The position numbers and the translations under genes were made by a program. Below are positions 8,539 to 35,787 of a stretch of DNA of 36,944 nt, piece by piece. Numbering within the stretch: position 1 is the stretch's first letter; each line of letters begins with the position of its first letter. A model generated the notes under the pieces. That model was not told where the DNA came from. It was given only the letters and a program-made list of their open reading frames with translations, and searched no databases. This stretch comes from a virus: positions 1 through 36,944 of IMG/VR virus record IMGVR_UViG_3300044825_001658, one strand, 5' to 3'.

Positions 8539-8652
8539 ATGACCCCTTATGAGTTTCTTGCTTCTCTCAAGAGCAAGTGGTGCGGATGGGACTCTCTCCC
8601 GCCTGGTTTCCAATTTCCAGTCAAAGAATTGGTGGCGAGCCTGAATAGATAG
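8539..8652 (+). CDS. Small protein, 37 aa
   Basis: ATG at 8539 is preceded by GGTGGAG at 8527-8533. The product runs MTPYEFLASLKSKWCGW and then a Pro-rich middle (LPPGFQFPV) and ends LVASLNR. Its first residues resemble those of the gene at 5099 (MTPYQLR). It ends directly at the terminator at 8653, supporting it as the last gene of the unit. Confidence 0.5.
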   Translation: MTPYEFLASLKSKWCGWDSLPPGFQFPVKELVASLNR

Positions 8653-31897: not shown

Positions 31898-32593
31898 ATG
31901 AGAGTAGATCTTCATAACTTTTTTCAATATTATGATCCAAAAAACCCAAAACACGTTGCTGCAGTAGAGCAACTGGAAGTTGATTTGAAAGATTCTCCAC
32001 TCTTGGATGATACTTCAAATTGGGTAAGAATTTTTAGAACTAAGAATGATCCAGTTATTCCTGGAGTTCTTGATGTTCCTTTCTATCCACAGACAGATAA
32101 CTACAGAGACGCTAACCGCACCTGTAACTCATCTGCCTGTGCTATGGTATTAGAATACTTTAAACCAGGCACACTCAAAGGACCAAAGGGCGATGACGCC
32201 TATGTTCAAAAAGTATTTGCAATCGGTGATTCGACTGATCACACCGTCCAGACAAAAGTTTTGGAAGGTTATGGAATTAAGTCACGCTTTAGTTACAATC
32301 TTGGGTTTGCTGATCTTGATCGTGAGCTTGCCGCTGGGAGACCTGTTGTTATCGGGATCTATCATCGCGGCACTTTATCTAATCCTACTGGCGGGCACAT
32401 GGTTACCGTGATTGGTAAGAGAGGTGAAGACTATGTTGTAAATGATCCTTATGGTTCTCTGAATGATGGATACACTGGACCAGTAACTAATGGTAGAGGT
32501 GCAGTATACAAGAAATCAGATCTTACTCATCGTTGGTTAGAAAGAGGAAAAGATAAAACTGGATGGGGTCGTATTTTTGAAGCAAAAAAGTAG
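31898..32593 (+). CDS. C39-type cysteine peptidase domain protein (0-frame product of the endolysin)
   Basis: A 231-aa protein with a papain-like C39_2 fold. The likely catalytic Cys76 is in RTCNSSACAMVLEYF, His167 in GGHMVTVIG, and the Asp/Asn in NDPYG (about 182-183). It would cut peptide bonds, plausibly in peptidoglycan stems or bridges. The stop TAG comes right after the slippery sequence A AAA AAG. In the -1 frame reading continues through a short Thr/Asn linker into the lysozyme. Ribosome site AGGAAC precedes the ATG. Confidence 0.83.
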   Translation: MRVDLHNFFQYYDPKNPKHVAAVEQLEVDLKDSPLLDDTSNWVRIFRTKNDPVIPGVLDVPFYPQTDNYRDANRTCNSSACAMVLEYFKPGTLKGPKGDDAYVQKVFAIGDSTDHTVQTKVLEGYGIKSRFSYNLGFADLDRELAAGRPVVIGIYHRGTLSNPTGGHMVTVIGKRGEDYVVNDPYGSLNDGYTGPVTNGRGAVYKKSDLTHRWLERGKDKTGWGRIFEAKK

Positions 32594-32643
32594 AAACACC
32601 AACCAATACAAATAATACCAATGAAGTGCCTTTGGTTGGTGTT
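32584..32643 (+). promoter_or_regulatory. Programmed -1 frameshift signal (slippery heptamer plus stem-loop)
   Basis: A AAA AAG (32584-32590) is in the frame required for -1 slippage and is followed directly by TAG. After four bases a perfect 10-bp stem, AACACCAACC (32595-32604) with GGTTGGTGTT (32634-32643), encloses a 29-base loop. The -1 frame reads KVETPTNTNNTNEVPLVGV into the lysozyme with no stop. The heptamer is the one used in E. coli dnaX. Confidence 0.75.
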
Positions 32644-33084
32644 AATTTAATCAAACAGTTTGAAGGATGTCATTTAAATGCATATCCAGATCCTCTGACC
32701 AAAGGACCACCAATCACGATAGGTTGGGGAAGCACTAGAGACTTTGATGGTACTCCTTTTAGAATTGGAAGAGTAATCACTCAAAAGTATGCGGACACTT
32801 TACTTGAGTTTGATATAAAGAATAGATTTCTTCCCGCACTTCAAAGAATACCTTATTGGAATGAGATGAATGAAAATCAAAAAGGAGCTCTTCTATCTTT
32901 TGCTTATAATCTTGGTGCTGGTTTCTACGGGTCTTCCAATTTTAATACTATAACTAGAGTTCTTAAAAGCAAGGAATGGTCTAAAGTTCCTGATGCACTT
33001 TATCTTTATCATAATCCAGGAACAAACGTTGCTGCAGGACTTCAGCGAAGACGTATTGCGGAAGGTAAACTTTGGAGATCCTAA
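32626..33084 (+). CDS. GH24 (T4-type) lysozyme domain, probably made as a -1 frameshift fusion
   Basis: GTG 32626 would give a 152-aa muramidase. QFEGCHLNAYPDPL keeps the catalytic Glu and, nine residues on, the Asp, followed by PITIGWGS, and QKGALLSFAYNLGAG is the other family motif. However, no Shine-Dalgarno precedes this GTG, which lies within the loop of a 10-bp hairpin. The frame is open upstream to the slippery site at 32584, so a fused C39-linker-lysozyme of about 395 aa is more likely. Both cut the cell wall, at different bonds. Confidence 0.9.
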   Translation: MPLVGVNLIKQFEGCHLNAYPDPLTKGPPITIGWGSTRDFDGTPFRIGRVITQKYADTLLEFDIKNRFLPALQRIPYWNEMNENQKGALLSFAYNLGAGFYGSSNFNTITRVLKSKEWSKVPDALYLYHNPGTNVAAGLQRRRIAEGKLWRS

Positions 33085-33407
33085 TCTTCTAACTTAGTTC
33101 TTAAAGCAATTACAGTAGTTAAGATTGTTAATAAAGTTTCAAATCCTCTTCTTTCAGATTCTTTGCAATCTGTTGGAGGCGGATTTTTTAATCCACCTAA
33201 AAGATTTGCATAGTTTGTTGTACCTGGAATCATAAAATTACAGGCAACAAAATTCAAACCAACAAATCCAATAATAGAACAACAAACAGCAAAGATTAAC
33301 TTATTCAGAATAGAACTTTGTTTTTTTCCTACCTCTTTTTGCTGGTCTTCTGATGAACCTGATGATTTCTGTGAATTGTCTCTTTGGTTGTGGTCTCCTA
33401 TTCTCAT
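33081..33407 (-). CDS. Small membrane protein with two hydrophobic segments, 108 aa
   Basis: Minus strand, with a textbook ribosome site AAGGAG (33414-33419) six bases before the ATG. A charged Gln/Ser/Lys-rich N-terminus is followed by a membrane segment (LIFAVCCSIIGFVGLNFVAC), a loop with PPPTDC, and a weaker hydrophobic helix at the end (TLLTILTTVIALRT). Placement back-to-back with the endolysin genes hints at a holin or antiholin-like role, unproven. Its stop overlaps the lysozyme stop on the other strand. Confidence 0.8.
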   Translation of the reverse strand: MRIGDHNQRDNSQKSSGSSEDQQKEVGKKQSSILNKLIFAVCCSIIGFVGLNFVACNFMIPGTTNYANLLGGLKNPPPTDCKESERRGFETLLTILTTVIALRTKLED

Positions 33408-33893: not shown

Positions 33894-33935
33894 CATCAAC
33901 AGGTTAAGGAATGTAACAGATTCTTAATCTTTGTA

Positions 33936-34032
33936 ACTCCCGTTAACCGAGACCTATGGGAGTATAAAAACGTCTCTCATATCTCCGCTGAGGGTGCGGA
34001 GAGCATAGTAACTCCACCATTTCCCTGATGGT
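33936..34032 (+). promoter_or_regulatory. Structured 5' leader of psbA
   Basis: About 155 bases separate the promoter from psbA. Three hairpins are visible: ACTCCC/GGGAGT (33936-33941 with 33958-33963), TCTCCGC/GCGGAGA (33982-33988 with 33996-34002), and ACCAT/ATGGT (34016-34020 with 34028-34032). GAGAC/GTCTC can also pair across the first. These may govern mRNA stability or light-linked translation, as leaders of host psbA genes do. Confidence 0.5.
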
Positions 34033-34053: not shown

Positions 34054-35343
34054 ATGACCGCTACACTTTCACGTCAACAATCACAATCAAATACTTGGGA
34101 ACAATTCTGCAACTGGGTAACTTCAACCGATAATCGTCTTTATGTCGGTTGGTTCGGAGTCCTCATGATTCCTTGCCTACTTGCTGCAACCATCTGCTTC
34201 ATCGTTGCCTTCATTGCTGCACCTCCTGTAGACATTGATGGTATCCGTGAACCAGTTGCTGGTTCTCTAATGTATGGAAACAACATCATCTCTGGTGCTG
34301 TTATTCCTTCGTCCAATGCTATTGGACTGCACTTCTACCCCATCTGGGAAGCTGCTTCTCTGGATGAGTGGCTCTACAATGGTGGTCCTTTCCAACTTGT
34401 AGTCTTCCACTTCCTGATCGGCATCTATGCCTATATGGGACGTGAGTGGGAACTTTCTTACCGCCTAGGTATGCGTCCTTGGATCTGTGTTGCTTACAGC
34501 GCACCTGTTGCTGCTGCTTCTGCTGTATTCCTGGTCTATCCTTTCGGTCAAGGTTCTTTCTCTGATGCGATGCCTCTGGGTATCTCTGGTACGTTCAACT
34601 ATATGCTTGTGTTCCAGGCAGAGCACAACATCCTGATGCACCCCTTCCACATGCTTGGAGTTGCTGGTGTCTTCGGTGGTTCACTGTTCAGTGCTATGCA
34701 CGGTTCTCTGGTTACTTCCTCGCTGGTTCGTGAAACCACTGAGAACGAGTCACAGAACTACGGTTACAAGTTTGGTCAAGAAGAAGAGACTTATAACATC
34801 GTTGCTGCACACGGTTATTTTGGTCGCCTTATTTTCCAATATGCTTCCTTCAATAACTCACGTTCGCTGCACTTCTTCCTTGCTGCCTGGCCTGTTGTAG
34901 GCATCTGGTTCACTGCTCTTGGTGTTTCCACGATGGCTTTTAATCTCAACGGTTTCAACTTCAACCAGTCCATCATTGACTCTCAGGGTCGTGTGCTCAA
35001 TACTTGGGCAGATGTACTTAATCGTGCTGGTCTCGGGATGGAGGTAATGCACGAGCGTTTTGTGAACGCATGGCGCTCGTTAAATCGGATGAATTGCTGG
35101 AACTCTCTTGTAGACAATCAGCAGCCAAGCCTTGCAAGCGTGTAAGGAAGGTTCAGAGACTAGGCGGTGGATGACGCTTCATCCGTAATACGCCACTAGC
35201 GTCCGACACTCTTATGAGTGATGATATAGTCCGCTCCCTCTGGCGACAGAGGTTAAAACAAAAGGAATGCTCACAACTTCCCCCTAGACCTTGCATCAGT
35301 TGAAGCAACGCCTGTTGCCTTGACTGCTCCAACTATCGGGTGA
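34054..35343 (+). CDS. psbA: Photosystem II D1 protein, join(34054..35058,35266..35343), split by a group I intron
   Basis: D1 is the PSII reaction-centre protein that turns over fast in light; phage copies keep photosynthesis running during infection. Exon 1 encodes 335 residues ending in MHER, and exon 2 encodes [10 protein letters not shown] plus a 15-residue C-terminal extension, giving a 360-aa protein of normal length. Residue 131 (the position usually numbered 130) is Glu, as in high-light D1 forms; Asp in [10 protein letters not shown] and the C-terminal His, Glu and Asp are Mn-cluster ligands. Unspliced reading runs 28 codons into the intron and loses His337, Asp342 and the C-terminus, so splicing is needed for function. 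Confidence 0.97.
35059..35265 (+). ncRNA. Self-splicing group I intron in psbA, 207 nt, no internal ORF
   Basis: P1 is exact: exon CGAGCGT (35052-35058) pairs with the guide GCGCTCG (35073-35079), giving the required U-G pair at the 5' splice site. P10 can form between GCAT (35068-35071) and ATGC (35267-35270). Core elements are AATCAGCAGCCAAGCC (35116-35131), GTTCAGAGACTA (35151-35162) and GATATAGTCC (35223-35232), and the last intron base is G. A 212-nt intron in psbA is known from cyanophage S-PM2. Confidence 0.94.
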
Positions 35344-35412: not shown

Positions 35413-35787
35413 ATGAAAACTTGCAATGATTGTAAAATTTCTTTACCAGATAGTTCATTTCACAAAAGAACTTTTAGTTCTGGTAATGTTGGATTGCAAC
35501 CAAGATGTAAAAAGTGTGCGACAAAAAATAGAAGACAGTATTATAAACCGCACGAATTTATGCGTAGAAAGTTCAAACTAACTGAACAACAGTACGCAGA
35601 ACTTATGAAAAATGAGAACTGTCAGATATGTGATAAGGTTTTGGATAAAAAGTGTATAGACCACTGCCATTCTTCAAATAAAGTTCGTGGTATTCTTTGC
35701 AATAACTGCAACACTGCTCTTGGACTTGTAGGAGATAATGTTTCAGTACTAGAAGAAATGATTAAATATCTACAAAAGCACCAATAA
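35413..35787 (+). CDS. Endonuclease VII-like (His-Me finger) nuclease, probable intron-associated homing enzyme
   Basis: A 124-aa protein. A zinc knuckle MKTCNDCK ... CKKCATKNRR is followed by a second zinc pair and the catalytic core: CQICDK, then IDHCHSSNKVRGILCNNCN with the DH active site, ending ALGLVGDN. This is the recombination endonuclease VII fold used by many phage homing nucleases. Its place right after an intron-bearing psbA recalls S-PM2, where a nearby free-standing nuclease cuts intronless psbA. It could help spread the intron by cutting psbA of competing phages. It has its own late promoter. Confidence 0.88.
   Translation: MKTCNDCKISLPDSSFHKRTFSSGNVGLQPRCKKCATKNRRQYYKPHEFMRRKFKLTEQQYAELMKNENCQICDKVLDKKCIDHCHSSNKVRGILCNNCNTALGLVGDNVSVLEEMIKYLQKHQ

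Follow-up and report, generated by a model that had tools for sequence, protein, structure and literature searches.

A putative programmed −1 frameshift joining a C39-like peptidase to a GH24 lysozyme in T4-like cyanophages

Introduction

The stretch of DNA analyzed here (36,944 bases, hereafter the window) carries T4-like cyanophage genes and represents part of the genome of such a phage. Within it, an open reading frame for a C39-like cysteine peptidase overlaps, at its very end, a GH24 lysozyme lying in the −1 frame, and the arrangement raises the question of how the lysozyme is translated. A sequence-only reading of this locus had proposed that the two enzymes are joined by a programmed −1 ribosomal frameshift into a two-enzyme endolysin. 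The comparative tests presented below, which address the slippery heptamer, the downstream stem, the existence of one-frame fusions and the absence of lysozyme starts, support this joining, in the absence of any expression data.

Anatomy of the C39/lysozyme junction

The zero-frame ORF (31898–32593, + strand) encodes a 231 aa product with a match to Pfam Peptidase_C39_2 (PF13529, 6.9e-11), in which Cys76, His167 and Asp183 are invariant across 20 relatives. Searching the PDB by sequence returned nothing useful for this protein. Its structural model, of moderate quality (pLDDT 74), matched PDB C39 peptidase domains with E values down to 1.9e-5, among them the ComA and PCAT1 domains, and, more weakly, the pseudomurein endoisopeptidase PeiR. 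Taken together, profile match, invariant residues and model qualify the product as a C39-like peptidase of papain-like fold with a Cys-His-Asp site. That it cuts peptidoglycan is an inference for which there are no activity data.

The C39 frame closes with GCA AAA AAG TAG, in which AAAAAAG at 32584–32590 (+ strand) reads A AAA AAG in phase and is followed immediately by the TAG stop (32591–32593, + strand). Phase, stop and the four-base spacer (TAGA) between heptamer and stem are as the sequence-only reading had described them. The stem was rightly called perfect but is longer than the 10 bp claimed, which form its outer part: 12 pairs, all Watson-Crick, connect the 5' arm AACACCAACCAA (32595–32606, + strand) to the 3' arm TTGGTTGGTGTT (32632–32643, + strand) across a 25 nt loop. 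The structure has a folding energy of −16.4 kcal/mol, which gives z = −3.0 relative to dinucleotide shuffles, and its 3' arm also encodes the opening residues of the lysozyme domain, LVGV. As anticipated, the −1 frame (32590–33084, + strand, with base 32590 read twice) is open through the linker VETPTNTNNTNEVP into the GH24 lysozyme (Pfam Phage_lysozyme, PF00959, 6.3e-22) and on to a TAA at 33082–33084. It contributes 164 residues after the shift, which with the 231 of the peptidase make up the fusion of about 395 aa that had been predicted. Heptamers of the A AAA AAG type are common by themselves, the window having 10 on its + strand; the combination of heptamer, stop and stem is beyond chance, since it recurs in dozens of diverged relatives.

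Conservation of the slippery site and the downstream stem

The comparative set comprised 136 distinct C39/lysozyme junctions from IMG/VR and GenBank phages, one-frame fusions being left out. Named-phage relatives of the window's C39 peptidase and lysozyme are mostly Synechococcus phages classed in the Kyanoviridae.

A zero-frame A AAA AAG was found in 110 of the 136 junctions, among them that of S-PM2, the C39 stop following directly in 87 and one codon later in 23. The C39 genes of these 110 fell into 51 clusters at 90% identity, with a minimum pairwise amino-acid identity of 65%. The third base ahead of AAA AAG was A in all 110, in the codons GCA (54), GTA (51), ACA (3), ATA (1) and GAA (1), even though the encoded residue varies between Ala, Val, Thr, Ile and Glu. 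Within these C39 genes, AAA AAG encodes just 12 of the 136 internal Lys-Lys pairs. Because internal AAA AAG is rare and the preceding A is fixed ahead of a varying residue, conservation of the heptamer exceeds the needs of the protein, and slipping explains it; the first comparative check put forward for the locus, a heptamer conserved among homologues, is thereby met. As a separate observation, AAG AAA accounted for 53 of the internal pairs against the 12 of AAA AAG, as if slippery pairs were avoided.

The stem is likewise maintained in the relatives, with its 5' arm starting 2–8 nt past the heptamer in nearly all of them (about 4 nt in the window) and its 3' arm ending on codons of the motif with which the lysozyme begins, Gly-Val-x-Leu-Ile-Lys. 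Arm sequences fall into three main registers unrelated to one another, CCAAC/GTTGG, CAACACCAC/GTGGTGTTG and TTCTACTCC/GGAGTAGAA. In an arm-swap test on 72 distinct 5' arms, with no selection on stem length, the longest helix averaged 10.9 bp for native arms against 6.7 bp for arms exchanged between loci (best of 500 shuffles, 7.6). Compensatory cells, in which both sides have changed, numbered 19 against 7.5 expected and 14 against 4.9 expected in two registers, counts matched in none of 500 shuffles; the result was also examined for the core of the second register. Compensatory changes had been named in advance as evidence for the stem, and wholesale replacement of arm sequences is seen as well. 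The two covariation alignments (A1 and A2) were, however, picked for carrying the stem, which favours the pairing counts, and the shuffles keep kinship; the arm swap and the replacement of arm sequences therefore carry more weight here. Within register 0, the stem class of the window (n = 15), covariation was no better than in arm swaps (0.911 vs. 0.900, maximum 0.922), there being too little variation in that class. A few heptamer loci (L077, L082, L092 and L149) show no more than weak stems.

A related junction in S-CAM7 and L171 keeps the −1 offset with a different slippery sequence, U UUU UUU CCA CAG TAG, and a stem of its own, which in S-CAM7 folds at −13.5 kcal/mol. In two further loci, L148 and L169, one additional A (A7 instead of A6) fuses the frames, the reading being ATA or GTA AAA AAA GTA GAA, so that the natural fusion has the very junction predicted for the frameshift product.

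These A7 variants, in showing that one added A fuses the frames, also lend some support to slippage of RNA polymerase on the A run, by which a fraction of the mRNAs would carry an extra A (A7G) and the frames would be fused without any ribosomal shift. The T8 run of S-CAM7 could slip during transcription, and the hairpin does not exclude this explanation, as a hairpin can stimulate transcriptional slippage as well (Roseiflexus IS). Against it, 110 loci retain A6G without any lengthening of the run, the zero-frame register and final G of the run are those that ribosomes favour, and a structured stem is conserved 2–8 nt downstream. We regard polymerase slippage as very improbable, and ribosomal frameshifting as the better account of the junction.

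The lysozyme frame and its possible starts

Across the 110 heptamer loci, no stop interrupts the −1 frame up to and including the catalytic Glu of the lysozyme, nor in the direction back past the heptamer. Leaving aside loci truncated at a contig end, the −1 product is a lysozyme, mostly of 150–170 aa, in 107 of 107. The GH24 site is preserved throughout: all 110 loci have the catalytic Glu (E25), and none of the 106 −1 products that were aligned departs from Asp34 or Thr43.

If ribosomes instead terminated at the TAG and re-initiated at a nearby start, peptidase and lysozyme would be two separate proteins. Potential starts do exist in the window. A GTG at 32626–32628 (+ strand) lies in the lysozyme frame within the hairpin loop and, as had been noted from the sequence, has no Shine-Dalgarno-like sequence upstream, although it is not the only separate start as claimed, a TTG at 32632 being in frame too. 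The GTG is mostly absent from relatives and an unlikely start. Some relatives do have clearly separate lysozymes: L016, L024 and L248 show a clean ATGA stop-start overlap and a lysozyme with its own N-terminus. Elsewhere such starts are scarce, no ATG, GTG or TTG preceding the catalytic motif in 56 of the 87 direct-stop loci and no Met preceding the catalytic Glu in 95 of the 110 heptamer loci; most homologues have no usable separate lysozyme start. Re-initiation, moreover, requires neither A AAA AAG nor a stem, and does not call for a −1 frame open back past the heptamer. It is, in our assessment, extremely improbable for the junction in the window. That the locus is merely a decayed fusion, or that the A run was misread in sequencing, with recoding playing no part, can be practically dismissed: homopolymers are error-prone and A7 variants exist, but an identical A6 junction stands in the S-PM2 record and in over 100 loci, and the lysozyme is undamaged, its catalytic residues being conserved and no stop interrupting it.

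Existing annotations bear on the −1 frameshift as well. The 'putative lysin' of S-PM2 in GenBank begins at 116499 (116499–116717, corresponding to L001 2460–2678), about 70 residues past the catalytic Glu, and the 'lysin' of S-CAM7 (L005 2445–2717) is likewise about 70 aa short, with the catalytic Glu missing. Both were apparently annotated short because the frameshift was missed and the lysozyme has no start before the catalytic Glu.

Other arrangements of the two domains

Homologues fused in one frame, which had been proposed as a further check, do exist: besides L148 and L169, ACG-2014f and the L172–L180 group carry in-frame C39-lysozyme fusions. S-CREM1 has the reverse order, lysozyme followed by C39, again in one frame. 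In an S-SRM01-like clade the junction is one codon longer, frequently carries an ATGA restart and lacks a clear stem, and the heptamer has been lost twice (L137 and L158); this clade may use coupled re-initiation. In L016, L024, L049 and L255, the ATGA-started lysozyme 3' of C39 has an extra N-terminal segment of about 50 aa (M[ST]IKFIDA..NHK). Some phages have C39 without an adjoining lysozyme, which suggests that C39 alone is likely a useful product.

In a quick C39 tree, heptamer, ATGA and lysozyme-free types were intermixed with weak support, and independent origins were consequently not counted. Recombination at the C39/lysozyme junction is likely. L148 and L169 sit near frameshift-type relatives in this tree.

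Proposed mechanism and host background

The evidence makes it very likely, in the absence of protein, ribosome-profiling or reporter data, that a hairpin-stimulated programmed −1 ribosomal frameshift of the dnaX kind, with A AAA AAG as its site, yields both C39 alone and a C39-GH24 fusion. According to this model, ribosomes would slip by −1 at the heptamer, a shift that is inferred to occur in vivo, with the hairpin about 4 nt downstream (2–8 nt in relatives) stimulating the slip. Ribosomes that stay in frame would release a C39 peptidase on its own, of 231 aa with the C-terminus ...AKK, and shifted ribosomes would translate, from the same mRNA, a C39-linker-GH24 fusion of 395 aa with the junction AKK-VETPT. 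The inferred fusion endolysin would act on both the glycan and the peptide parts of peptidoglycan, its assignment as a phage endolysin with a role in lysis and peptidoglycan cleavage being inferred from its domains and from PHROG lysis annotations. Frameshift efficiency, the rate of which is unknown, would then set the dose of lysozyme relative to C39 peptidase. The likeliest outcome is abundant C39 peptidase with a smaller, set share of two-enzyme endolysin, the size of that share being unknown.

In E. coli, A_AAA_AAG is unusually prone to slipping because a single tRNA-Lys reads both AAA and AAG (review PMC5009743). Synechococcus sp. 1G10 has one tRNA-Lys, with anticodon UUU; across its family, 88 of 101 genomes yielded a match to a UUU-type arm and 3 a match to a CUU-type tRNA arm. 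A fourth CUU-type match in these genomes looked like chance and was set aside. Synechococcus hosts thus mostly have only tRNA-Lys(UUU), the condition for A AAA AAG slipping in E. coli, although it is not known which host this phage infects. The window itself codes for ten tRNAs, Lys tRNA not among them. Of the features that mark a dnaX-type element, the locus has a zero-frame heptamer, a covarying downstream structure, a conserved coding −1 frame and, judging from Synechococcus, a host with a single tRNA-Lys(UUU).

Comparison with known systems and implications

Like the junction described here, E. coli dnaX combines A AAA AAG with a single-stem stimulator a few nt downstream in a host with one tRNA-Lys(UUU). 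The two differ in outcome, the dnaX shift giving the short product and the C39-lysozyme shift, with the stop in the zero frame, the long one, and also in that no upstream Shine-Dalgarno is shown for the latter. A GGGG lies about 15 nt upstream of the heptamer in the commonest contexts, but it codes for a conserved Trp-Gly, and a dnaX-type Shine-Dalgarno is not shown. The lambda G/GT tail-assembly chaperone offers a second parallel, with a conserved −1 shift close to where a phage gene ends, a C-terminal extension and control of a ratio; it is a different gene without homology, and the C39 extension is a whole enzyme domain.

Among lytic enzymes, the Lys170, CD27L and CTP1L endolysins yield a long and a short product from one gene through an internal in-frame start (PMC6023083), and a frameshift at the GTGA junction between gp1 and lysA of Ms6 has only been suggested (PMC3111421). 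These systems, Ms6 LysA included, share with the C39-lysozyme locus the output of long and short lytic proteins from one gene. Lys170, CD27L and CTP1L do so by internal in-frame starts, whereas here a slippery heptamer and stem would join two catalytic domains. The same two domains also occur in one polypeptide in PHROG 3617 (cyanophages such as ACG-2014f), in frame, and in the lysozyme-C39 protein of S-CREM1, in swapped order, both without recoding. The phage frameshifts described in the open-access literature that we surveyed concern tail chaperones and structural proteins. No endolysin built through a slippery heptamer was found in that literature, in line with the initial claim that none had been described; the −1 frameshift mechanism is already known, and what has not been described, within those limits, is an endolysin built by it.

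It seems probable that a large group of cyanophages doses a lysis enzyme by programmed frameshifting, with the lysozyme existing only as an extension of C39, and that the several routes by which relatives reach the same enzyme pairing (in-frame fusion, order swap, U UUU UUU and stop-start coupling) reflect selection on enzyme ratio or lysis timing. To our knowledge, this would be the first phage lysis enzyme made via a conserved −1 frameshift. The element occurs in the model cyanophage S-PM2, whose annotated lysin is without its catalytic half, and the frameshift would explain mis-annotated or missing lysozymes in these phages. It also provides a testable case of lysis set by ribosomal slipping, in phages that kill abundant photosynthetic bacteria.

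Other features of the window

A convergent ORF on the − strand (33081–33407), whose stop overlaps that of the lysozyme, encodes 108 aa with one likely membrane segment and had no Pfam or PHROG match in profile scans; that it is a lysis partner is possible, as an untested idea. Farther downstream, a PhotoRC-II RNA motif (Rfam) at 33924–34016 lies ahead of psbA, which contains a group I intron (Rfam RF00028) near its 3' end at 35019–35253. A psbA intron is known in S-PM2. An endonuclease VII-like ORF (35413–35787) is located 3' of the intron, and a wcaG RNA motif (Rfam) is present at 8549–8646.
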